The position numbers were made by a program, and so were the translations under genes. From positions 1 to 64,000 of the forward strand of contig VGRF01000009.1 in NCBI GenBank assembly GCA_016875395.1: a stretch of DNA of 64,000 bases. The letters run 5' to 3'. The notes beneath the pieces were generated by a model. The model saw nothing but the letters and a program-made list of their open reading frames with translations. It ran no database searches and was not told the DNA's origin. Shown one piece after another: positions 1,819-54,603 of the stretch. The DNA is from Deltaproteobacteria bacterium (GTDB taxonomy: Bacteria > Myxococcota_A > UBA9160 > UBA6930). The first letter of the stretch is position 1; every line of letters starts with the position of its first letter.

Positions 1819-3073
1819 ATGATGCTGCTCCGCCACTCGCGCCTCGCTGCGCTCCTGCTGCTCGCACTCACGCTCGCGACGACGGCGCACGCAAACCCGC
1901 GCGGACCGCGCTGGGTCACGACCTGGGCCACCGCATCGAAGACCCCCACGATCTTCGATCGCGCGCTCCCCACGCTCGACGACGTCACGCTGCGTCAGAT
2001 CGCGCATGTGAGCCTCGGCGGTCCGCGCGTGCGCGTGTGGCTTACGAACGAGTTCGGTAGCGCCCCGCTGCGAGTCGGCGCGGCGACGGTGGCGCTGCGC
2101 GCTTCGGGCGGAAGCATTGCGCCGGAGTCGCTGCGCACGCTCACGTTCGGCGGCGCCGCATCGATCGTGATCGCACCGGGTGCGCGCGTCGTGAGCGACG
2201 CGGTGAGCCTGCGCGTGCCGAGTCGCGCCGACCTCGCGATCAGCGTGCATCTCCCCGACGACGTGACCGGCTCGGGCTCGCCCGTCACGTATCACGTGCG
2301 CGCGCTGCAGACGAACTACATCGCGAGCGGCGACCAAACCGCGGCGACTCACCTGATCGCCGCTTCCAGCGAGACGTCATGGGTTTTATTCGCCGGCGTC
2401 GACGTGATCACCACGCCGGGCACGTGGGGCGTCGCCGCGATCGGAGACTCGATCACTGACGGCGATCAGGTGGCGTTCCCGAACGAGCCCGTCGACCTGA
2501 ACGCGCGTTACACCGATTTTCTGGCGGAGCGGTTGCTCGCCGAGCGGCGCGCTGGCGTGCTCAACGCGGGCATCTCGGGCAACCAAGTGACGCGCACCTT
2601 CTTGGGCGACAACGTGCAAGCGCGCCTCGACCGCGACGTGCTGGCGAGAACGGGCGTGACGCATGTGATCGTGACTGCGGGCATCAACGACATCGGGCTG
2701 CCCGGACTGCTCACGGTGATCGGAATTCCCACGCCACCCGTTGCGGTGACGGACATCATCTCGGGCCTCCAGCAAACCGCGGCCCGCGCGCGCGCGCGGC
2801 CTCGTGGTGATCGGCGGCACGCTCTCCCCGTCGGGAGGAAGCCTTCCGGGCTACTCCGGCGCAGCAGCCGAGTCGGCTCGGCAAGCCCTGAATGCGTGGA
2901 TCCGCACCACGGAAGCCTTCGATGCGGTGGTCGACTTCGACGCCGTGCTGCGCGACCCCGCGAATCCGACGGTGATGCAAGCCGGCCTCACGGCCGACAA
3001 CCTGCACCCGAACACGGAGGGCTACCGCCGCATGGCGGACGCTGCCTTCGCGGTGTTGACCGGCGCGCCGTAG
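1819..3073 (+). pseudogene. secreted SGNH/GDSL hydrolase, frameshifted
   Basis: The first frame begins with a Sec signal peptide (MLLRHSRLAALLLLALTLA then TTAHA) and contains SGNH block I, AAIGDSITDG, with nucleophile Ser211, then the GISGN block and GINDIG block. At about 2780-2800, within a run of CG dinucleotides, the frame shifts. The second frame supplies VIGGTLSPSGG and the last block DNLHPNTEGYRRMA with the catalytic Asp and His. All conserved blocks are therefore present across two frames, about 417-418 residues in total. The shift equals loss of two bases or gain of one, as expected of CG-run slippage or read error. The original frame runs on to 3168 as non-homologous sequence. Likely an exported esterase or lipase-like enzyme. 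Confidence 0.78.
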
Positions 3074-16727: not shown

Positions 16728-19151
16728 ATGCCCGCCGTCCTCGAAGGCACTCGCGTCCTCGACCTCACGAGCGGCCCCGTCGGCGGCGTCGCGACGGCGG
16801 TGCTCGCGGACTTCGGTGCCGACGTCGTGAAGATCGAGCCGCCGCGCGGCGACCGCTTCCGTGCGCTCGCCGCGGCGCCGCTGTGGCTGCGCGGGAAGCG
16901 CAGCGTCGCGCTCGACCTGACCATCGAGGCCGATTGTGCGCGGCTCGCCCCCCTCGTCGCGAGCGCCGATGTGCTCGTCGTCTCGGGTCCGCCCGGCCGC
17001 GCGGCGCGCTTCGGCGTCGATGCGGAGCGCGCACTTGCGGCGAATCCTCAGCTCGTGCACGCGAGCCTCACGCCCTTCGGCCCGCGCGGGCCGTACGCCG
17101 AGATTCCGGGCTACGAGGGCATCGTCGCGGCGCTGGGCGGGCGCATGGCGGTGTTCGCGCGCCAGGTGCGCCGCGACGGACCGGGCTTCGCGGCGGTGAG
17201 CATCGCGAGCCACGCGTGCGCAATGGGCGTGGTGCAGGGCGTTGTCGCGGCGCTCTATGCGCGCGAACGCACGGGGCGCGGGCAGCGCGTCGAGTCCAGC
17301 CTGCTGCAGGCGCTGCTCCCGTACGACCTCGTCTCGCTGCTGCTCGTGCAGCTCGCGGCGCGCGAGGGAAAGCCGCCGCCGGATCCGTACGCCGTGGGCG
17401 GCGACATGCCCACGCTCAACTACCACCCGATCCTCACGCAGGACGGGCGCTGGCTGCAGTGCGGGAACCTGCTCGAGCACCTGTTCCTCTCGTTCCTCGA
17501 CTCGATCGATTTGTTGGGCGAGCTGCTCGCCGAGGAGCGCTTCGCGGCGCCGCCCGGGGCGTGGGACGCCGCGACGATCGAGGCCGCGCGGGATCGCATC
17601 CTGCTGCGCGTGCTCGAGCGCACGGCGGACGAGTGGATGCAGCGCTTCCACGCGAACGGGAACGTGGCGGCGGAGCCGTATCTCACGCCCACGCAGGCGC
17701 TCGCGCACCCCGACCTCGTCGCGAACGGCAGCGTCGTCACGCTGCGCGATCCCGAGCGTGGCGACGTGAAGCAGGTGGGCCCGATCGCGCGCCTCGTCGC
17801 GACGCCCGCGCGCATCGCGAAGCCTGCGCCGCGCGTGGGCGAGCACGGGCGCGAGGTGCTCGCCGAGCAGCGCTCGCTCCCGCCGCGAGTTGTTACGGGC
17901 GACACGCCGCCGGGACAGCCCCTCGCGGGCGTCACCATCCTCGAGCTCGCGACGATCATCGCGGCGCCACTCGGCACGACGTTCCTCGCGGACCTCGGCG
18001 CACGCGTGATCAAGATCGAGGCCATCGACGGCGACCCGTACCGCCAGTTCCTCACGCGCGGGCTCTTGGCCGTGAAGACCAACGCGGGCAAGGAGTCGAT
18101 CTGCCTCGACCTGAAGAGCGCCGACGGTCGCGCGATCGCGCATGACCTCGTGCGGCGCGTCGATGTGCTCGTGCACAACTACCGCCCCGGCGTACCCGAG
18201 CGCCTCGGGATCGACTACGCGAGCGCACGCGCGCTGAATCCGCAGCTGATCTGGGTCTCCGCGAACGGCTACGGCCCCGACGGCCCGAGCGCACGGCGGC
18301 CGGTGACGCATCCCGTCGCGGGCGCCGCAGCCGGTGGCGCGGGACACCAAGGCGCGCCGACGCTCGCGCGCGCGCACGAAACGCTCGCGGAGATTCGCGA
18401 GGGCGCGCGCCAGTTGATGCGCGCGAACGAGGCGAACCCGGATCCGAACACCTCCGTCGTCCTCGCGGCTGCGATCGCTCTGGGCCTCCTTGCGCGCCAG
18501 CGCTTCGGCATCGCACAGCCGATCTACACCGACATGTTCAGCGCGAACGCGTGGGCGAACGCCGACGACTTCCTCGACTACGCCGGCAAGCCCGCGCGCC
18601 CGCGCGTCGACGACGCGTTGCTCGGCTTCGCGCCTACGTACCGGCTCTACGAGACGCGCGAGGGCTGGGTGTTCCTTGCGCTCACGTGCGACGCCGAGTG
18701 GCGGCGCTTCTGCGCGATGGCGGAGCGCGAGTCGCTAGGGAGCGACCCTCGGTTCGCGAGCGAGGCCGCGCGTGCGCAGAACGCAGATGCGCTCGTGCGC
18801 GAGATCGGTACCGCACTGAAGGCGCGCGGCGCCGCCGAGTGGCAGCAGCGCGCGCTCGCCGCGCGCGTACCGCTCGTGCGCGCGGACGCGACCGACCCGG
18901 GGCACCTGTGGGCGCACGATGCGCACGTGCGCGAGAACGGCTTCGTGCAGCCGTGCCGCCACGCGCGTTTCGGGGACGTGCTGCGCTGGGGCGCGCTCGT
19001 CACGGTGAACGGCGCCGCGGAGCGCTACGGCGCCGGCGCGCTCGCCGGCGACTGCACCGACGCGCTGCTGCGCGAGCTCGGGCGCAGCGACACGGAGATC
19101 GCGCGGCTGCGCGAGCAGCGGGTCGTCGCGTCGGAGCCCATCGCGGGCTGA
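16728..19151 (+). CDS. double-length CaiB/BaiF (family III) CoA-transferase
   Basis: The 807-residue protein contains two complete CoA-transferase III units, about 1-385 and 398-807. Each begins with the family's LEGTRVLDLTSGPVGG or LAGVTILELATIIAAP strand and FGADVVKIEPP or LGARVIKIEA. By hand alignment to formyl-CoA transferase, the catalytic Asp is replaced by Ser161 in unit 1 (AAVSIASHACAMG). Unit 2 keeps an Asp at 572 (NPDPNTSVV). Members move CoA between acyl groups. One active and one degenerate unit in a single chain may mimic the interlocked dimer. ATG 16728 has GGAG upstream. The neighbouring receptor and BVMO suggest activation of a catabolic acid. The frame is open from 16665 but lacks a good start. 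Confidence 0.85.
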   Translation: MPAVLEGTRVLDLTSGPVGGVATAVLADFGADVVKIEPPRGDRFRALAAAPLWLRGKRSVALDLTIEADCARLAPLVASADVLVVSGPPGRAARFGVDAERALAANPQLVHASLTPFGPRGPYAEIPGYEGIVAALGGRMAVFARQVRRDGPGFAAVSIASHACAMGVVQGVVAALYARERTGRGQRVESSLLQALLPYDLVSLLLVQLAAREGKPPPDPYAVGGDMPTLNYHPILTQDGRWLQCGNLLEHLFLSFLDSIDLLGELLAEERFAAPPGAWDAATIEAARDRILLRVLERTADEWMQRFHANGNVAAEPYLTPTQALAHPDLVANGSVVTLRDPERGDVKQVGPIARLVATPARIAKPAPRVGEHGREVLAEQRSLPPRVVTGDTPPGQPLAGVTILELATIIAAPLGTTFLADLGARVIKIEAIDGDPYRQFLTRGLLAVKTNAGKESICLDLKSADGRAIAHDLVRRVDVLVHNYRPGVPERLGIDYASARALNPQLIWVSANGYGPDGPSARRPVTHPVAGAAAGGAGHQGAPTLARAHETLAEIREGARQLMRANEANPDPNTSVVLAAAIALGLLARQRFGIAQPIYTDMFSANAWANADDFLDYAGKPARPRVDDALLGFAPTYRLYETREGWVFLALTCDAEWRRFCAMAERESLGSDPRFASEAARAQNADALVREIGTALKARGAAEWQQRALAARVPLVRADATDPGHLWAHDAHVRENGFVQPCRHARFGDVLRWGALVTVNGAAERYGAGALAGDCTDALLRELGRSDTEIARLREQRVVASEPIAG

Positions 19152-19190: not shown

Positions 19191-19790
19191 ATGGAGCCGG
19201 GCTCGGACGCGGACATCATCGAGCGCTCCCTGGGCGAGCCGGCCGCGTTCGCCTCGCTCTACGACCGGCACGCGGCAGTTCTCTATCGCTTTCTCGTGCG
19301 CCGCATTGGGCCGTCCGCGGCTGACGGCCTACTCGGCGACACCTTCCGCATCGCATTCGAGCGGCGCGCGAGCTTCGATCGCGGCCACGAGAGCGCGCGC
19401 CCGTGGCTCTACGGAATTGCGACGCGCGTACTCGCGCATCACCGCCGCGCAGAGGCACGCCGCATGCGCGCAGCTGCGGTGCTCGTCGCCAGCCGCGAGG
19501 CGCCCATCGATCCAGCGCAGCGCGCCGCAGCTTCGCACGACGCGCGCGAGCTGTGGCCGCTCGTGGCCGACGCGATCTCGGCGCTGCCTGTCGGCGAGCG
19601 AGATGCACTTCTCCTGCACGTGTGGGAGGACCTTGCTTACGACGAGATCGCGCGCGCGCTCGGAGTTCCGATCGGGACGGTGCGCTCGCGCATCAACCGC
19701 GCGCGCAGGCGCCTGCGCGAACTGACGGCGCAGAGCGGGCAACAAGCAGCGACACGGAGCGCAGCCGGACGTGGGAAGATCGAGTCATGA
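19191..19790 (+). CDS. ECF-type RNA polymerase sigma factor
   Basis: This 199-residue protein has sigma region 2 at about 8-80 (FASLYDRHAAVLYRFLVRR, then GDTFRIAFERRASFD and ARPWLYGIATRVLAHHRR). Region 4 is at about 128-178 (ISALPVGERDALLLHVWEDL, DEIARALGVPIGTVRSRINR). There is no region 1 or 3, the mark of extracytoplasmic-function sigma factors. It redirects RNA polymerase to a small regulon. Its TGA stop overlaps the next gene's start (ATGA at 19787-19790), so the two are translationally coupled, as is usual for a sigma factor and its regulator. It starts 39 nt after the CoA-transferase. ECF subgroup cannot be assigned by eye. Confidence 0.9.
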   Translation: MEPGSDADIIERSLGEPAAFASLYDRHAAVLYRFLVRRIGPSAADGLLGDTFRIAFERRASFDRGHESARPWLYGIATRVLAHHRRAEARRMRAAAVLVASREAPIDPAQRAAASHDARELWPLVADAISALPVGERDALLLHVWEDLAYDEIARALGVPIGTVRSRINRARRRLRELTAQSGQQAATRSAAGRGKIES

Positions 19791-20356
19791 GCGACGACCT
19801 CGACCGGCTGCGGCGGCTCCGCCCCGACCGCTTGCAACCGCACGATCCGATGGACCCGAAGGTCCTGATGGACGAGAAGGAGCGACTCATGTCCGCCATC
19901 GAGCAGTCCGCCGCGAGTGTGCACGCGGCGACACGCATGCCGTCGATCTATCCGCGCCTCGCCTATCGCGATGTCCTCCGCGCGCTCGACTTTCTCACGC
20001 GCGCGTTCGGCCTCCGCGAGCGCCGCGAGGCGCGCCTCGAGCATCCCGACGGAGTGCTCGCGTGGCTCGAGATCGGCGATGGCGTCGTCATGATCGGTCA
20101 GTCGGGCGCGGCCCATCACGAGCTCTACAGCCCCGCGGAGCTCGGGCGCACGACCGGTATGGTGATGGTCTCGGTCCACGACATCGACGCCCATCATGGG
20201 CGAGCCGTCGCCGCCGGGGCTCGTGTCGTGATGCCGCTCGAGGACATGTTCTGGGGCGACCGCCGCTACGAGGCGCTCGACCTCGACGGGCATCGCTGGC
20301 ACTTCAGTGAGCGCCTAGCGGACATCGAGCGGCGGCGCGGAAAGAGCGCCGAGTAG
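19787..20356 (+). CDS. anti-sigma-like head fused to a VOC/glyoxalase domain
   Basis: The 189-residue product starts at an ATG overlapping the sigma factor stop. Residues 1-45 (MSDDLDRLRRLRPDRLQPHD, then PMDPKVLMDEKERLMSAIE) resemble the short N-terminal heads that precede a membrane helix in anti-sigma-like proteins next to ECF genes. Here no membrane segment follows. Instead, residues 51-180 form a vicinal-oxygen-chelate domain (YPRLAYRDVLRALDFLTRAF, AWLEIGDGVVMIGQSG, ALDLDGHRWHFSER) like PhnB/glyoxalase-type proteins. I infer a soluble regulator that binds the sigma factor with its head and a small ligand or metal with its VOC domain. A plain enzyme with an unrelated N-terminal extension is the alternative. 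Confidence 0.78.
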   Translation: MSDDLDRLRRLRPDRLQPHDPMDPKVLMDEKERLMSAIEQSAASVHAATRMPSIYPRLAYRDVLRALDFLTRAFGLRERREARLEHPDGVLAWLEIGDGVVMIGQSGAAHHELYSPAELGRTTGMVMVSVHDIDAHHGRAVAAGARVVMPLEDMFWGDRRYEALDLDGHRWHFSERLADIERRRGKSAE

Positions 20357-20418: not shown

Positions 20419-22128
20419 ATGCCCGAGCCCGTTCGCGACGCCGCTTACTACGACGCGATCAGGCGCCGCTTCGCCGAAGAGCGCGACCTACGCCTGCGCT
20501 ACCGGCCCGAGGGCACGTCGCAGTACACGTCAGAGCTGACGGGCGCGCTCGAGAAGTACGCGCGCGATCCCTACGGCGGGGAGATCGCACCGCGCGCGCC
20601 GATTCGCGACGAGGTGGAGGTGCTCTTCATCGGCGGCGGCTTCTCGGCGCTGCTCACGTCCGCGCGCTTGCGCGAGAAGGGCGTCGAGTCGATCCGCATC
20701 GTCGAGCGCGGCGCCGACGTCGGCGGCACCTGGTACTGGAACCGCTACCCCGGCGTCGCCTGCGACGTCGTCTCCTACGACTACCTCCCGCTGCTCGACG
20801 AGATGGCGTACGTGCCGACGCGCCACTACGCCGGCGGCCAGGAGATCCTCGACCACTGCCGCGCGATCGCGCGCCGCTACGACCTCTACAAGCTCGCCGT
20901 GTTCCAGACGACCGTGACGAGCACGGTCTGGAACGAGCGCGAGCGCGTGTGGGAGATCGGCACGGATCGGGGCGACGCGATGCGCGCGCGCTTCGTCGTG
21001 TGCGCGAACGGCACGCTCTCGAAGCCGAAGCTCTCCAAGATCGCGGGCATGGAAAAGTTCCGCGGCCACTCCTTCCACACCTCGCGCTGGGACTACGACT
21101 ACACCGGCGCGAACCTCGAGAAGCTGCGCGACAAGGTCGTCGGCATCATCGGCACCGGCGCGACGGCGGTGCAGGCCGTACCCGGCCTCGGCGCGAACGC
21201 GAAACAACTCTTCGTCTTCCAGCGCACGCCCAGCTCGATCGACGTGCGCGACGACTGGCCCACCGATCCGAAGTGGGCGGCGTCGCTGAAGCCAGGCTGG
21301 CAGGCCGAGCGGCGCGCGAAGGCGCTCGCGGAGCCGATGCTCACGCTCGGTGGACGCGCGGCGCCTGGCGAGACGCGCGAGCAGAAGATCGAGCGCCAGG
21401 AGCGCGCGAACATCGACTACATGATGCGCATCCACCGGCGCATCGAGAAGATCGTCGCGGATCCCGCCACCGCCGAGGCGCTGAAGCCTTGGTACATGTT
21501 CATGTGCAAGCGCCCGTGCTTCCACGAGGACTACCTGCCCACGTTCAACCGCCCGAACGTGCGGCTCGTCGATACGCGCGGGAAGGGCATCACCGAGATC
21601 GACGAGCGCGGCCCCGTGTTCGAGGGCAAGACCTACGAGCTCGACCTGCTGATCTACGCGACGGGCTTCGAGGTGCAGAAGACGGGCATCTGGAACCGCA
21701 TCGTGGGGAAGGGCGGCGTCGACCTCGAAGCGAAGTACGCAGACGGCATTCGCACCTTGTTAGGGATCCACACGCGCGGCTTCCCGAACTTGTTCATCAT
21801 GGGCGGCTATCAGGCCTCGTTCCAGTTCAATCTCACGGACATGCTGCAGACGCAGGGCGACCACATCGCCGAGTGCATCGCGCACGTGCGCAGTCGCGGC
21901 TTCACGACGATCGACCCCACCGAGGCCGCCGAGGAGTGGTGGGTGCAAGAAGTGATCGCGCACCGCGGCAAGACCTCGCGCAATCACGACTGCACGCCCG
22001 GCTACTACAACTTCGAGGGCGAGTCGAACCGCCGCCAAGACGGCAACTACAACGGCGGCTTCCGGCAGTACTGGCTGCACCAAGGCGAGGTGCGCGGGCG
22101 GATGGAGGAGAGCTTCGAGCTGGAGTGA
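20419..22128 (+). CDS. flavin-containing Baeyer-Villiger monooxygenase
   Basis: This 569-residue protein has two nucleotide-binding motifs, FIGGGFSALLTSARL (70-84) for FAD and GIIGTGATAVQ (242-252) for NADPH. Between them is the Baeyer-Villiger fingerprint FRGHSFHTSRWD (214-225), matching FxGxxxHxxxWD. The GGTWYWNRYPGVACD stretch (102-116) is also typical. These enzymes insert one oxygen atom next to a ketone to make an ester or lactone, for example in steroid or cyclic-terpenoid ring cleavage. The C-terminal LLIYATGFEVQKTGIW is the conserved ATGF motif. A GGAG site precedes ATG 20419. It is monocistronic by spacing (62 nt after the VOC gene, convergent to an SDR). Confidence 0.92.
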   Translation: MPEPVRDAAYYDAIRRRFAEERDLRLRYRPEGTSQYTSELTGALEKYARDPYGGEIAPRAPIRDEVEVLFIGGGFSALLTSARLREKGVESIRIVERGADVGGTWYWNRYPGVACDVVSYDYLPLLDEMAYVPTRHYAGGQEILDHCRAIARRYDLYKLAVFQTTVTSTVWNERERVWEIGTDRGDAMRARFVVCANGTLSKPKLSKIAGMEKFRGHSFHTSRWDYDYTGANLEKLRDKVVGIIGTGATAVQAVPGLGANAKQLFVFQRTPSSIDVRDDWPTDPKWAASLKPGWQAERRAKALAEPMLTLGGRAAPGETREQKIERQERANIDYMMRIHRRIEKIVADPATAEALKPWYMFMCKRPCFHEDYLPTFNRPNVRLVDTRGKGITEIDERGPVFEGKTYELDLLIYATGFEVQKTGIWNRIVGKGGVDLEAKYADGIRTLLGIHTRGFPNLFIMGGYQASFQFNLTDMLQTQGDHIAECIAHVRSRGFTTIDPTEAAEEWWVQEVIAHRGKTSRNHDCTPGYYNFEGESNRRQDGNYNGGFRQYWLHQGEVRGRMEESFELE

Positions 22129-22842: not shown

Positions 22843-23027
22843 GGTCGTGCTCCTGTGATTCGAAGTGGGAAGAGGCCCACGTTACGACAGCTTCGCGCCG
22901 CGCGTGAAACGGGCGGCGCATGTGGCGTGCTGTCCCCTGCCGCCACGAAATCGGGAGAAACCGGCAGCCGGGGTGGGGCGGATTGGGCGCGTGGCCGCGC
23001 GCCGCGCCCGCAGCAGCGCTTCTGCCG

Positions 23028-23042
23028 TGGCACAACGCTTGC
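23028..23042 (+). promoter_or_regulatory. sigma-54 (-24/-12) promoter of the nos operon
   Basis: The sequence TGGCACAACGCTTGC matches the RpoN consensus TGGCAC-N5-TTGC exactly in both boxes, with GG and GC separated by ten bases. Transcription would start near 23054, about 30 nt before the cytochrome c start codon. No FNR-type TTGAT....ATCAA box was seen in the 241-nt intergenic region. If real, it means the operon needs an enhancer-binding activator. Confidence 0.68.
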
Positions 23043-23083
23043 GGAACGAGCGCGCCAAACGCCCACTCATTAGGGAGATCTCG

Positions 23084-23554
23084 ATGCTTCGGGTTCGCGC
23101 GCTGCAGGTCGCGGTGATGACCGCGGCTGCACTCTGGTTGGCCTGCGGTGGAGACACGGAGAAGCCCAGCGGCACGGCGAGCGGGCCCGAAGTCGCAGCG
23201 AAAGAAGCAGAGTCGGCAGACGGCGGCGACGACGAGGCCGAGGAGGTCGCCAAAGCGGACGACGGCGCGACCGAAACGGCGAAGCAGATCTTCGGATCGC
23301 GCTGCTTCACCTGTCACGGCGCGGAGGGCGCTGGCGACGGCCCCGGCTCCGCGGCGCTGAACCCCAAGCCCCGCGACTTCCGCGACGCCTCGTGGCAAGA
23401 CTCCGTCAGCGACGACCACATCGCGAACATCGTGAAGTTCGGCGGCGCCGCCGTCGGGAAGAGCCCGACGATGCCGGGCAACCCCGACCTGATGAGCAAG
23501 CCCGAAGTCGTCGCGGCGCTCGTCGCGCACGTGCGCAGCCTGCGCGCGCAGTAA
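23084..23554 (+). CDS. lipoprotein mono-haem cytochrome c of the nos cluster
   Basis: This 156-residue protein has a lipoprotein-type signal (MLRVRALQVAVMTAAALWLA then Cys21). An acidic Ala/Glu/Asp-rich linker spans 25-65. One haem-binding CFTCH (74-78) sits in a class-I cytochrome c fold, with a likely axial Met near 129 (SPTMPGNPDL). It is placed on the periplasmic face of a membrane and probably hands electrons to NosZ, as do the NosC-type cytochromes of atypical nos clusters. ATG 23084 follows AGGGAG. The frame is open upstream to 22865 but that part has no signal peptide. nosZ starts 18 nt after the stop. Confidence 0.87.
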   Translation: MLRVRALQVAVMTAAALWLACGGDTEKPSGTASGPEVAAKEAESADGGDDEAEEVAKADDGATETAKQIFGSRCFTCHGAEGAGDGPGSAALNPKPRDFRDASWQDSVSDDHIANIVKFGGAAVGKSPTMPGNPDLMSKPEVVAALVAHVRSLRAQ

Positions 23555-23572
23555 CAACTCGTGGAGGGACCC

Positions 23573-25527
23573 ATGCGCACTCGTTCCCATGCTCTCGCTT
23601 CGCTCGCCGCCGCGGCGTTCGTGCTCGCGTGTACGCCGCAGTCCGAGCTCGAATCCGCCGGCGGCGGCGGGGGCGCCGACGTCGCGGCGCTGATGAAGGC
23701 GCGCAATCTCACGGATGAGCACGTCGCCGCCGCGCTGAAGACCTACACGCCCACTGGCGTGCACGACGAGTACTACACGTTCGCGTCGGGCGGACACGGC
23801 GGGCAGGTGCTCGTGATCGGCTTGCCGAGCATGCGCGCATCCTCAAGGTGATCGCGGTGTTTGCGCCGGAGCCGTGGCAAGGCTTCGGCTACGGCGACCA
23901 GACCGACGCGCTGCTCGACTCCGGCAACGCCGACGGGAAGAAGCTGCGCTGGGCCGACACGCACCACCCCGCGCTGTCCGAGACCGCGGGTGACTACGAC
24001 GGCCAGTACTTGTTCATCAACGACAAAGCCAACGCGCGCATGGCCGTGATCAATCTCGAGGACTTCGTCACGACCCAGATCGTGCGCAGCGGGCTGATTC
24101 AGTCCGACCACGGCGGCGCGTTCGTCACGCCGAACACCGAATACGTGATCGAGGCGACGCAGTACGCGGCGCCGCTCGGCGGTGGGTACGCGGACGTCAC
24201 GGAGTACAACGAGAAGTACCGAGGGGCGATCATCCTGTGGAAGTTCGATCGCGAGAAGGGCGCGATCGATCGCGCGAAGTCGTTCGCGATCGAACTCCCG
24301 CCATACGGCCAAGACCTCGCGGACGCCGGCAAGCTCGCGAGCGACGGCTTCATCTTCCTCAACTCGTTCAACACCGAGCGCTCGTACGGCGACATCGCCG
24401 CGGGCAACCCGCCGATGGAGTCGGGCGCGTCGCAGAACGACACGGACTTCATGCACGTGATCGACTGGCACAAGGCCGAGGCCGCTGTCGCCGCAGGCAA
24501 GACGCGCACGATCGCGAACATGCCCGTGATCCCGCTCGCGAGCGCGGTGTCCGAGGGAATCCTCCACCTGATTCCCGAGCCGAAGAGCCCGCACGGCGTC
24601 GACGTCTCGCCGGACGGCCAAGACATCGTCGTCGCGGGCAAGCTCGACACTCACGCCCCCGTCTACAGCATCGAGAAGATCAAGGCGCTGATCGGCGCAA
24701 AGAAGTACGCCGGCAACGACGACTACGGCGTGCCGATTCTGCCCTTCGAAGAGTCGATCCGCGGCCAGGTCGAGATCGGACTCGGGCCGCTCCACACGCA
24801 GTTCGGCCCCGACGGCTTCGCCTACACGTCCGTCTTTCTCGAGTCCGTCGTCGCGAAGTGGAACCTCAAAGACCTGAAGACCGTGAACAAGCTGCCAGTC
24901 CACTACAACATCGGGCACTTGACGGCTGCCGAGGGCGACACGGTGAGCCCCGACGGCGGCTACCTGATCGCGATGAACAAATGGGCGATCGATCGCTTCG
25001 GCAAAGTCGGCCCGCTGCTGCCGCAGAACTTCCAGCTCGTCGACATCAGCGGCGCGGAGATGAAGCTGCTCTACGACATGCCGCTGCCGATCGGCGAACC
25101 GCACTACGCGCAGACGATCAAGGCCGACAAGCTGAAGCCGATCGACGTGTACCCGGTCGGTACCGATCCGATCGCGAAGCGCATCGACCCGAACGCGGTC
25201 GAGGCCGGCAAGGAGCGCGTCGAGCGGCGGGACGACGGCGTTCACGTGTGGATGACCGCCGTGCGCAGCCACTTCACGCCGGATGTCGTGCGCGTGAAGG
25301 AAGGCGACACCGTGCACCTCCACCTCACGAACACGGAGCAAGCCTACGACGCGACGCACGGCTTCGCGCTCGGCTCGCACAACGTGAACGTGAGCATCGA
25401 GCCGGGCGAGCACGCCAACGTGACGTTCAAGGCGGACCGCGCAGGCGTGTTCCCGATGTACTGCACCGAGTTCTGCTCGGCGCTGCACTTGGAGATGGCG
25501 GGCTACTTGCTGGTGGAACCGAAGTAA
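23573..25527 (+). CDS. nosZ: nitrous-oxide reductase NosZ, atypical type, with one frameshift
   Basis: NosZ reduces N2O to N2 in the periplasm with the CuA and CuZ copper sites. CuZ-type histidines are visible in DTHHPALSETAGDYDGQYL, QSDHGGAF, SPHGVDVSPDG, GPLHTQFGPDG and HYNIGHL. CuA is in ATHGFAL and CTEFCSALHLEMAG. No twin-arginine signal is present; the start MRTRSHALASLAAAAFVLAC looks like a Sec lipoprotein signal, as in atypical (clade II) enzymes. At 23833-23840 an extra GC in a GCGC run shifts the frame. Removing it restores GLPSMR-ILKVIAVFAPEPWQ and a 650-residue protein. GGAGG precedes ATG 23573. The gene either is inactive or carries a sequence error. Confidence 0.92.
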
Positions 25528-25533
25528 CCCGAG

Positions 25534-26797
25534 ATGCTCGCGCGCGCCGTCGTGTTCACGTGCATGGCAGCGCTCGCGAGCGCGGAGACGGCGGCCGCGT
25601 CGGAGGCGACTCCGGCGCGGCCGCTCGCTTGCCTCGCGGTGGAGTCCGGCGCGCGGCTTCAGGCTGCACTCGACGCAGCGCAGCCCGGCGATGCGCTCTG
25701 TCTCGCGCCCGGCGAATACGCCGGTCCGCTCGTCGTCGCAAAGCGCATCACGCTCTGGGGTCCGCGATCCGCGAGCGTCGTCACGCGCGGGGTGGGCAGC
25801 ACGATCCGCGTCACCGGCGCGGGCGCCTCATTGCTCGGCTTTCGCGTCGACGGCAGTGGCTCGCGCTTCGAGCGTGCGGACGCGGCGGTGCGAGTCGAGG
25901 CCGACGACGTTCGCGTCGAGCGCCTCGCGATCGAGAACGCGCTGTTCGGAATCCTCGCGGAGCGCGCGAATCGCCTGCGCATCGCGCACAACGATGTCGC
26001 CGGCATCGCGACGACCGCGCTGGGCCTACGCGGCGACGCGATCCGGCTTTGGGAGGTGCGGCACTCGCGCGTCGAAGGCAATCGCGTGCGCGACGCGCGC
26101 GACATCGTCGCCTGGTACGCGCCTGGCAACTCGTTCGTCGCGAACGAGATCGAGCGCGGCCGCTACGGCATGCACTTCATGTACAGCCACGATTGCCGGG
26201 TCGAGCGCAATCGCTTCGATCGCAACGTGGTGGGCGTGTTCGTGATGTACAGCCGCGGCGTCGAGATCGTCGGGAACGAGATGCTGCGCGCGGGGGGGCG
26301 CCGCGGGCATGGGAATCGGCGCGAAGGAGTCGGGCCTGCTCGTGATCGATGGCAACCGGCTCGTCGGAAACACCATCGGCGTCTACCTCGACCAGAGCCC
26401 GCTCGACCCGCGCGAAGAAAATCGCATCGAACGCAACGTCATCGCCGGCCACGACCGCGCGATCGTGATCCACGGCGGCTCTGCGCGGAACCACCTCGTT
26501 GCGAACGAGCTGCGCGCCAACGACGTGCAGGTGGCGCTCGAAGGCGGCGGCAACGCGCGCGCCGCAGAGTGGCGTGGGAATTACGACGACTATCGCGGCT
26601 ACGACCTCGATCGCGACGGCATCGGCGACCTGCCGCACGAGCAGCGCAGCCTCGCGGCGGCGTGGACGCAGCGCGCGCCCGCGCTCGCGCTCTTCCGCGG
26701 CACGCCGGCGCTCGCACTTGCAGAGTGGCTCGGCGAGACCGTGCCGCTGTTCCGCCCCGAGACGCTCTTCGTCGACGAGACGCCCCGTGCGCATTGA
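25534..26797 (+). CDS. nosD: NosD periplasmic maturation protein, with one frameshift
   Basis: NosD is a periplasmic right-handed beta-helix protein needed with NosF and NosY for copper-site assembly in NosZ. It has a signal peptide (MLARAVVFTCMAALASAETA), then parallel beta-helix repeats such as RLRIAHNDVAGI, NSFVANEIERGRYGMHFMYS and VVGVFVMYSRGVEIVGNEML. Near 26291-26297 a run of seven G shifts the frame. With six G the sequence reads LRAGGAAGMGIGAKESGLLV, exactly the NosD pattern. The corrected protein is about 420 residues, ending in NYDDYRGYDLDRDGIGDLPH and a C-terminal segment. It starts 7 nt after the nosZ stop and its tail overlaps nosF. Confidence 0.88.
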
Positions 26798-27671
26798 GGC
26801 GCGCGACGTGCGCAAACGCTTCGGCGCCACTGCCGCGCTGCAGGGCGTGTCGTTCGCGGTCGAGCCCGGCGCGCGCGTGGCGCTGATCGGCCCCAACGGG
26901 TCGGGCAAGTCGACGCTGAACCGCGCGCTGCTCGGGCTGCTTCGCTGCGAAGGCGAGCTGCGCGTCGACTCGCGCGACCCCGCACGCGAGCGAGCGCACC
27001 TCGCACGCGAGATCGCCTACGTGCCGCAGGCCGCGCCGCAGCTCGCGGCGAGCGCGGGCGAGGTGGTCGCTGCGGTGTGCGGGGTGCGCGGCATCGCGGG
27101 CTCACGCGTGGATGCGCTTGCGCAGCGGCTTGGGCTCACGCTCGGCGAGATCGCCGCGCGCCCGTTCCGCGGACTCTCGGGCGGGATGAAGCAGAAGCTG
27201 CTCGTCGCGCTCGCGCTCGCAGCTTCGCCGCGCTTGCTGGTGCTCGACGAGCCGACCGGCAGCCTCGACGCCGAGAGCCGCGCGCGCGTGCTCGAGGCGA
27301 TCGCCGAGCAGCCGCGCGAGACCACGCTCGTGCTGTGCTCGCATCGCCTCGAAGAAGTGCGCCAGCTCGCGAGCGAGGTGCTGGTGCTGGAAGAGGGCCG
27401 CGTCGCGCGGCGCGGCGCGCTGAGCGACTACCTCGACGACACGCTCGTGAGCGTCCTCGACGTGACCCTCGCCGCGCCGCCGAAGGGCGAGGCCGAGTTG
27501 ATCGCGCGCGGCTTCAAGCCACTCGGCGAGGGGCGCTACTCGCGGCTCGCGTCGCGGCGCGAGAAGGCGCGCGTCGTGGCCGAGCTCGCACAGCTGTTAG
27601 GCGCGCAGCTCGGCGACCTCGAGGTGCGCGACGTCGAGCACGGCACGGCTGCGGAGCCGCGCGATGCGTGA
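26787..27671 (+). CDS. nosF: NosF ABC-transporter ATPase
   Basis: This 294-residue ABC ATPase has Walker A GPNGSGKST (35-43), signature LSGGMKQK (about 131-138), Walker B LLVLDEPTGSLD and the switch His in LCSHRLEEVR. The start is a GTG at 26787 overlapping the last 11 nt of nosD; the frame is open further upstream but is the shadow of nosD. In the Nos system this cytoplasmic ATPase works with the NosY permease and NosD to deliver a sulfur species for the CuZ site. The C-terminal 70 residues after the ATPase core are the usual NosF tail. It overlaps nosL by 8 nt, giving a tightly coupled operon. Confidence 0.9.
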   Translation: MRIEARDVRKRFGATAALQGVSFAVEPGARVALIGPNGSGKSTLNRALLGLLRCEGELRVDSRDPARERAHLAREIAYVPQAAPQLAASAGEVVAAVCGVRGIAGSRVDALAQRLGLTLGEIAARPFRGLSGGMKQKLLVALALAASPRLLVLDEPTGSLDAESRARVLEAIAEQPRETTLVLCSHRLEEVRQLASEVLVLEEGRVARRGALSDYLDDTLVSVLDVTLAAPPKGEAELIARGFKPLGEGRYSRLASRREKARVVAELAQLLGAQLGDLEVRDVEHGTAAEPRDA

Positions 27672-52826: not shown

Positions 52827-54230
52827 ATGCGCTCACTCCGAATCGCCTGCGCCGTGCTCGCCGCGTTTGCCGGCTCGTCTCTCGCCGCCGCAGATCCTGC
52901 GGCGGACCGGGACGAAGCGAGCCAGTTGCTCGCGGAGCTCGTCGCGATCGACACCACTCAGGCGGGCAGCACCGGCCCGGCGGTCGATCGCATCGCCTCG
53001 TACTTGCGCGCGGCCGGCTTCCGCGACGAGGAGCTGCTCGTGCTGGGCCCGCGGCCGGACCGCATGAACCTCGTGGTGCGCTTGCCAAGCGCGCGGCGGG
53101 CGCAAGCGAAGCCGATCGTGTTCATGGCGCACCTAGACGTCGTGGAGGCGAATGCGCGCGAGTGGTCGACGCCGCCGTTCACGCTCACCGAAAGGGACGG
53201 CTTTTATTACGGGCGCGGCGCCGTCGACATCAAGAACGAGGTCGCCGACCTGGTCGCGAATTTCGCGCGGCTGCGGCGCGAGGGCTTCGTGCCGAAGCGA
53301 GATCTTCTGCTGGCGCTCACCGCGGACGAGGAGGAGGGCGACGCGAACGGCGTGGCGTGGCTGCTCGCGAACCGGCCCGACCTGATGGACGTGGCCTATG
53401 CGATCAATCTCGACGCCGGCGGGCTCCATCAGCAGCGCGGGCGCTTCGTGCGCATGCCGATTCAAACTGCCGAGAAGCTCTACTTGTTGTTCCGGATCGA
53501 AGCGACGAGCCTCGGGGGCCACGGCTCGCTGCCGACGCGCGAGAACGCGATCTACCGCCTCGGCGCTGCGCTCGCGCGGCTCGACGGCATCGAGTTTCCC
53601 GCGCGCATCACCGCGACGACGCGCCCGTACCTCGAGCAGCTCGCGGAGAGCGAGACGGGCGAGCTCGGTGCGGCGCTGCGCGGCGTGCTCGCCGAGCCGC
53701 CGGACGCGGCGGGGCTCGCGAAGCTGAGCGCGATCCCGTTCTACAACGGCACGCTGCGCTCGGTGTGCACGCCGACGCTGATCGCGGGCGGGCACGCCGA
53801 GAACGCGCTGCCCGAGCGCGCGACCGCGACGCTCCAGTGCCGCCTGATGCCCGAAGATGATCCCGCGGAGATCGAGCGTCGCATCGTGGAGCGCATCGCC
53901 GACCCGCTCGTGCGCGTGACGCGCGGCGGGGGCGAGCTCGTCGTGGCCCCAGCGTCCGAACCGAACCCACGCCTCTTCGCTCACGTCGCCGCCGTCTCGC
54001 GCGAGTTCTGGCCCGGCGTGCCGGCGGTGCCGCTGATGGACCCGTGGATGAGCGACGCCGCCTACACGCGCCGCGCGGGAATTCCCACCTACGGTATGTC
54101 GGGCATGTACTTCGACATCGACGACTACCGCGCCCACGGCAAGGACGAGCGCATCGCGGTGGAGGCGTTCGAGCAGGGGCTCGAGTTCACGCGCCGCTTG
54201 TTGTTGCGCCTCGGCCGCGATGCCCGCTGA
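52827..54230 (+). CDS. M20-family metallopeptidase, exported
   Basis: The 467-residue protein has a signal peptide (MRSLRIACAVLAAFAGSSLA) and the zinc-site pattern of M20 peptidases: His102-x-Asp104 (MAHLDVV), Asp134 (GRGAVDIKN), Glu168-Glu169 (ADEEEGD) and the late His in YRAHGKDERI. It hydrolyses an amide or peptide bond in the periplasm with two zinc ions. The opposite-strand neighbour is a penicillin-acylase-family hydrolase, so both may trim acyl-amino compounds. Its end overlaps the VOC gene start by 11 nt. Confidence 0.9.
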   Translation: MRSLRIACAVLAAFAGSSLAAADPAADRDEASQLLAELVAIDTTQAGSTGPAVDRIASYLRAAGFRDEELLVLGPRPDRMNLVVRLPSARRAQAKPIVFMAHLDVVEANAREWSTPPFTLTERDGFYYGRGAVDIKNEVADLVANFARLRREGFVPKRDLLLALTADEEEGDANGVAWLLANRPDLMDVAYAINLDAGGLHQQRGRFVRMPIQTAEKLYLLFRIEATSLGGHGSLPTRENAIYRLGAALARLDGIEFPARITATTRPYLEQLAESETGELGAALRGVLAEPPDAAGLAKLSAIPFYNGTLRSVCTPTLIAGGHAENALPERATATLQCRLMPEDDPAEIERRIVERIADPLVRVTRGGGELVVAPASEPNPRLFAHVAAVSREFWPGVPAVPLMDPWMSDAAYTRRAGIPTYGMSGMYFDIDDYRAHGKDERIAVEAFEQGLEFTRRLLLRLGRDAR

Positions 54231-54603
54231 CTTCACGCTCGCCTACGTGCGCGTGTTCGTGCGCGATTTCGACCGCGCCGTCTCCTTCTACACGGACGCG
54301 CTCGGGATGAAGCTCGCGCAGCGCAGCGACGAGTTCGGCTGGGCCGAGCTCGCGACGGGCGATGCGAAGCTCGCGCTAGAGCGCGTTGCGCCCAGCGACG
54401 CGGAAGGCGAGGCGCTCGTCGGCCGCTTCGTCGGCGTGTCGCTCGCAGTGGCGGACGTCGAGGCGACCTACGCGCGTCTGCGCGAACGCGGCGTCGCGTT
54501 CGAGGCGCCGCCCGAGCACATGCCGTGGGGCGGCGTGCTCGCGCACTTCCGCGATCCCGACGGCAACGTGCTCACGCTCGTGAGCGCGGCTAGTTCGCGC
54601 TGA
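54220..54603 (+). CDS. VOC-family protein (glyoxalase-I-like)
   Basis: The 127-residue product has the single VOC module: [37 protein letters not shown] and [15 protein letters not shown], with the [13 protein letters not shown] segment of glyoxalase-like metal sites. It binds a divalent metal and may isomerise, or bind, a small molecule. It starts inside the M20 gene, coupling the two, and its last 14 nt overlap the convergent PEPCK gene. Confidence 0.85.

Follow-up and report, generated by a model that had tools for sequence, protein, structure and literature searches.

An ECF sigma factor gene and a second gene overlapping it, whose product joins a short N-terminal head to a soluble VOC domain (head-VOC), were identified in the 64,000-nucleotide stretch of DNA analysed here (the window). 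Most ECF sigma factors are coupled to a sensor in the membrane, and it is unusual for an ECF sigma factor to have a single operon as its regulon. From comparative sequence evidence, head-VOC may well be a soluble ligand-sensing anti-sigma factor, so that the pair would form a cytoplasmic sense-and-sequester switch with its own operon as the main target; this reading is held to be somewhat better than evenly probable. A sigma switch of this kind would probably answer a chemical inside the cell and make more of its own binder. The system appears to be undescribed so far, in line with the sequence-only reading, which knew of no system of this form: a literature search, without many of the subscription papers and without the 2021 re-classification of ECF sigma factors, yielded no account of an ECF partner that carries a VOC sensor.

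The sigma factor gene (19191..19790, plus strand) codes for a protein of 199 amino acids, and the head-VOC gene (19787..20356, plus strand) for one of 189 amino acids. The stop codon of the former and the start codon of the latter share the letters ATGA, and the two open reading frames bear out the overlap noticed earlier. The first protein is an ECF sigma factor by its content, as searches with Pfam and NCBIfam identified region 2 (residues 23-91, 19257..19463, plus strand; PF04542, Sigma70_r2, 1.6e-7) and region 4 (residues 125-175, 19563..19715, plus strand; PF08281, Sigma70_r4_2, 5.5e-17); no Pfam match to region 3 was obtained. The second protein was described in the sequence-only reading as a head of roughly 45 residues that carries a complete VOC domain in place of a membrane part, and this description was borne out. 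The Glyoxalase profile PF00903 matches residues 58-173 (7.7e-16, 59 bits against a cut-off of 20.6, profile positions 7-121 of 121) within a VOC domain which extends from about residue 54 to residue 175 (19946..20311, plus strand).

The arrangement is more than chance, because the same pair recurs in other genomes. In total, the sigma factor with head-VOC was found in nine genomes, three from Myxococcota including the source of the window and six from Acidimicrobiia. In eight of them the pair is present as separate genes, with the same or another short overlap, and in one as a single fused open reading frame; sigma factors of the same group thus stand directly before head-VOC, or are fused to it, in eight genomes besides the source, as the proposed link to ECF genes had called for. 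Among 98 relatives and 379 genomes of the phylum, two further head-VOC genes were detected, in G006 and G082. The sigma genes immediately before them belong to the same group and are 49 and 56% identical to the sigma gene of the window; one of these two pairs has the identical 4-nt overlap. When named genomes were scanned with a sigma profile, an Acidimicrobiia MAG was identified with a sigma factor 53% and a head-VOC 52% identical to those of the window, and five more head-VOC pairs were present among 296 genomes of the class of this MAG. Overall, the sigma orthologs adjoining head-VOC are 49-61% identical to the sigma factor of the window. In the class to which the window belongs, the full system was identified in 3 of the 91 genomes searched. 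No head-VOC was detected in 346 Actinomycetes genomes at E 1e-40, and no relative in the viral contigs searched. Since sigma factor and VOC domain have diverged down to about 40-50% identity with the layout kept, the system is rare but old.

For the head (residues 1-42, 19787..19912, plus strand), which is characterized by the motif LRxLRPD...DPxxLxxxKxRLMxxI, the first 45 residues or so gave no match in Pfam or NCBIfam, and none of the anti-sigma HMMs used covers it. A profile-profile comparison with hhalign revealed homology to the heads of CU044_5270 proteins (NF038083), with a probability of 95.8% and E 8e-9, and the heads of the VOC and membrane types can be aligned without large gaps. 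With a model built from membrane heads only, five of eight VOC heads scored above all 4000 shuffled heads; the head of the window reached 9.1 bits (E 0.24), a weak score when taken alone, but higher than any of 500 shuffles of the same head. When sigma-only and VOC-only rows were combined in one alignment, the heads were placed wrongly, and these alignments were discarded. Of the earlier description of this segment as an anti-sigma-like head, the part that stands is its homology to the heads of ECF partners of the CU044_5270 type; a match to a named anti-sigma family was not obtained.

In Actinomycetota, sigma orthologs that are 43-49% identical to the sigma factor of the window adjoin CU044_5270 genes with the same kind of short overlap, and in the partner the head is followed by a transmembrane helix and then by a domain on the outside. 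When six of these Actinomycetota partners were scanned with NF038083, four passed the cut-off, one stayed below it and one, L062, gave no match. No paper on CU044_5270 was found in the literature search; an anti-sigma role of these proteins is what we infer. The two systems have in common the homologous cytoplasmic head, the sigma group, the gene order, the overlap and the upstream motif, whereas the head precedes a transmembrane helix and an extracytoplasmic domain in CU044_5270 proteins and a soluble VOC domain in the window. Head-VOC was considered as a member of NF038083 and rejected: membership is defined by more than 100 bits with the curated model, together with the transmembrane helix and the extracytoplasmic domain, and head-VOC gave no NCBIfam match and has the head alone in common. 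One head found on two unrelated sensor parts, beside one sigma group, is what would be expected of a sigma-binding module, and the head may be read as such.

The properties of the head were further compared with the known classes of anti-sigma domains. Class I or zinc anti-sigma domains comprise about 100 amino acids, with HxxxCxxC in the zinc members, and these features are absent from the head, which has about 45 amino acids, no cysteine and no Pfam match. An AlphaFold2 model of head-VOC, obtained from an alignment with three full-length rows and with a mean pLDDT of 65, predicted helices at residues 3-10 and 24-48 (block-mean pLDDT 63-77 over residues 1-40). With less than 50 amino acids and two helices predicted at moderate confidence, the head would fit class II in both length and helix content. 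The class II protein CnrY is membrane-bound, in contrast to the soluble head-VOC; the likeness lies in a short two-helix head without zinc motif, as judged by layout and not by sequence. Class II domains are defined as having less than 50 amino acids and two helices, and in CnrY helix 1 binds sigma region 4 and helix 2 binds region 2 (PMC7406223).

For a soluble anti-sigma factor, a precedent is ChrR from Rhodobacter sphaeroides (RpoE-ChrR, ECF11), in which an N-terminal sigma-binding domain is combined with a C-terminal cytoplasmic sensor domain (PMC8999054). The proposed role of head-VOC would share this working principle of a soluble anti-sigma factor with a C-terminal sensor. In contrast, ChrR is composed of a zinc anti-sigma domain, of the class with about 100 amino acids, and a cupin-like domain, and head-VOC of a 45-residue non-zinc head and a VOC domain. 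An assignment of head-VOC to the ChrR type was rejected, as neither a ZAS nor a cupin-like domain was found with Pfam.

The nearest solved relative of the VOC domain is TioX (3itw), both by sequence (phmmer E 5e-20) and by fold, where it ranked first in Foldseek with a query model of low mean confidence. Further relatives are TnmS1, TnmS2, the bleomycin N-acetyltransferase and a mitomycin-binding protein. For TioX and the TnmS proteins, a possible sequestration of their antibiotics has been discussed (PMC6804068). The AlphaFold2 model is poor in the first half of the VOC domain and weak at residues 78-123; inspection of the alignment, with the model of this quality, revealed no conserved His, Glu or Gln in the first strand of either VOC half. 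As far as such an inspection goes, the lack of conserved metal ligands at these positions would speak for a VOC domain that binds its compound rather than converts it. TioX, TnmS1, TnmS2 and the mitomycin- and bleomycin-binding proteins share the VOC fold with head-VOC, but they are stand-alone sequestration proteins of antibiotic producers and carry no sigma-linked head. A second, distant VOC gene is located at 54208-54567 of the window, and its product is 29% identical to the VOC domain of head-VOC.

The similarity to TioX could also be taken to mean that the VOC domain is merely the output of the system, a drug-binding or detoxifying protein whose head is a tether or the leftover of a replaced membrane anti-sigma factor, with no sensing and with the sigma factor under transcriptional or other input. 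Such a reading, regarded as unlikely, has to explain why the head is conserved across the deep divergence seen in the trees of sigma factor and VOC domain alike, and why it is lost where the sigma factor is lost. The latter was seen for G049 and G004, whose VOC genes, placed with G006 and G082 in the tree, are without the first half of the head; the sigma group is absent from both genomes, where the best sigma factors belong to other groups. In G004 the sigma gene is gone, and the promoter-like motif described below stands twice in tandem upstream of the VOC gene (L004, about 1985-2065, minus strand). The retention of both copies suggests a deletion that removed the body of the sigma gene and left the promoters. 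A VOC protein that has lost head helix 1 and its sigma factor and still has both copies of the motif before its gene would fit a useful output; on the other side, no other regulator of the sigma factor is conserved near the pair across the loci, and sigma factor and VOC domain are fused in one genome.

This fusion was identified in G402 (L131 946-2031), where a single frame of 361 residues, on a single metagenome contig, runs from the sigma factor through the second half of the head into the VOC domain. Both sigma regions and the VOC domain of the fusion were recognised by Pfam, and helix 1 of the head is missing. When proteins encoded side by side in other genomes are found fused, this is classically taken as evidence for a joint function. 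Its layout is also like that of ECF41- and ECF56-type sigma factors with a SnoaL C-terminal extension, where a soluble domain of a small-molecule fold controls an ECF sigma factor; these differ by another fold, while in the window the domain is encoded by a separate gene and the head lies between sigma factor and domain. The resemblance of the fusion to sigma factors with C-terminal regulatory extensions (PMC8999054) would fit head-VOC being a co-activator or chaperone, in which the ligand-bound VOC domain helps the sigma factor, partly like CorE-type or ECF41 extensions. We consider this improbable, since the homologous membrane form is laid out as a membrane anti-sigma factor with a short head, a transmembrane helix and an outside domain, and since the class II inhibitor CnrY is likewise built from two short helices (PMC7406223). 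A different extension was found in G524 (L127 1501-2676), where the head-VOC frame, beside a sigma gene, runs on into a TPMT/TehB-like methyltransferase, which is a detoxification-type enzyme.

Just upstream of the sigma gene, a motif of the form CGAACCG-N11/12-CGGGmAA was present in all nine loci, with minor variants, the most divergent being that of G379. Its sequence resembles that of an ECF promoter with a -35 element of the GAAC type. In the window the predicted sigma-specific promoter P1 (19157..19181, plus strand; CGAACCG-N11-CGGGCAA) has its 3' end 9 nt upstream of the sigma start codon, and its transcript is predicted to be near-leaderless. The same motif precedes the sigma-CU044_5270 genes of Actinomycetota in L063, L064, L104 and L159, which implies that the promoter goes with the sigma factor and not with the VOC domain. 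In L068-L071 (Nocardia, Prescottella, Rhodococcus), a sigma-CU044_5270 promoter with the variant -10-like half GTGACAA was noticed, and a similar site seems to lie within the 3' end of the sigma gene.

A predicted second promoter, P2 (19718..19742, plus strand; CGAACTG-N11-CGGGCAA), is located within the 3' end of the sigma gene, 44 nt before head-VOC. With a matrix built from the first sites, P1 scored 22.9 bits and P2 18.5 bits, followed by 14.3 bits for the next of about 128,000 positions in the window. P2 is present in seven of the eight unfused loci, where it also encodes the peptide LREL...SGK/RQ (LRER...VGKE in G006), and it does so with codons that are unusual for these GC-rich genes. 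Glu is encoded by GAA and Gly by GGG, followed by AAA or, where the residue is Arg, by AGA. In the pair of the window, GAA is absent from the 25 remaining Glu codons, and AGA is used for none of 125 Arg elsewhere in three of the gene pairs. The product of the codon frequencies at P2 over five lineages, with the residues taken as given, is about 2e-13, and this choice of rare codons shows that the DNA itself is under selection. In the fused G402 locus, where a separate promoter for the VOC domain would be pointless, the -10-like half of P2 is lost. P2 would allow production of VOC in excess of the sigma factor, which also suits a VOC domain that serves as output.

The strict motif has one exact match in the window, against none expected, and one in the whole genome of 4.5 Mb on 96 contigs, at the sigma/head-VOC operon. 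None of the single-mismatch sites outside the operon in the whole genome is convincingly placed before a gene, and the 162 two-mismatch sites, against 104 in a reversed control, are not far above background. Genomes without the system contain 0-3 exact matches, about the level of the reversed control, so that lone sites elsewhere mean little and the weight lies on where the motif stands, at the operon. This search for a regulon may have overlooked weaker sites.

For the sense-and-sequester switch, the following course of events is considered the most likely. Without ligand, the head would hold the ECF sigma factor off RNA polymerase, as presumed for the heads of the membrane partners. Binding of a small hydrophobic or electrophilic compound by the VOC domain in the cytoplasm would loosen the head from the sigma factor, and the freed sigma factor would then transcribe sigma and head-VOC from P1 and head-VOC alone from P2. 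Surplus head-VOC would soak up the compound, until unloaded binder shuts the sigma factor off again. The fuller proposal, to which a somewhat less than even chance is given, is that the VOC domain is both sensor and resistance product: the compound would free the sigma factor for the operon of its own binder, with one promoter before the sigma gene and one within it, and the membrane-sensor part of a CU044_5270-type partner would have been swapped for a TioX-like domain, or the reverse. The same sigma group and one conserved head occur with two unrelated sensor parts, one in the membrane and one in the cytoplasm, and a testable function is offered for the unexplained CU044_5270 family. The promoter sequence could be used directly in an orthogonal switch, and the system might possibly serve as a genetically encoded detector of antibiotic-like molecules.

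A gene for an FAD monooxygenase (20419-22128) is located 62 nt downstream of head-VOC, and no terminator was found between the two, so that read-through into the monooxygenase gene may occur. In G082, a monooxygenase of the same superfamily is encoded three genes downstream of the pair. These neighbours would fit a VOC domain that is a metabolic enzyme of a neighbouring catabolic cluster, with the ECF pair regulating this cluster upon its substrate; the sequence-only reading had likewise suggested a compound of the surrounding catabolic genes as the ligand. Such a link was not supported and is regarded as very improbable. The neighbours differ in all other loci, where a search for a shared neighbour gene gave practically nothing beyond the pair itself; the predicted promoter is present at the pair only, with no exact motif before any other gene of the genome, and FAD monooxygenases of this sort are common in such genomes. 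Directly upstream of the sigma gene, positions 16731-19151 of the window code for a CaiB-type protein of about 800 amino acids with two CoA-transferase family III stretches. Farther downstream, positions 22865-27671 look, as read from the translations, like a nitrous-oxide reductase cluster with a cytochrome-c-like protein, a NosZ-like reductase (23848-25527), a NosD-like repeat protein and an ABC ATPase.
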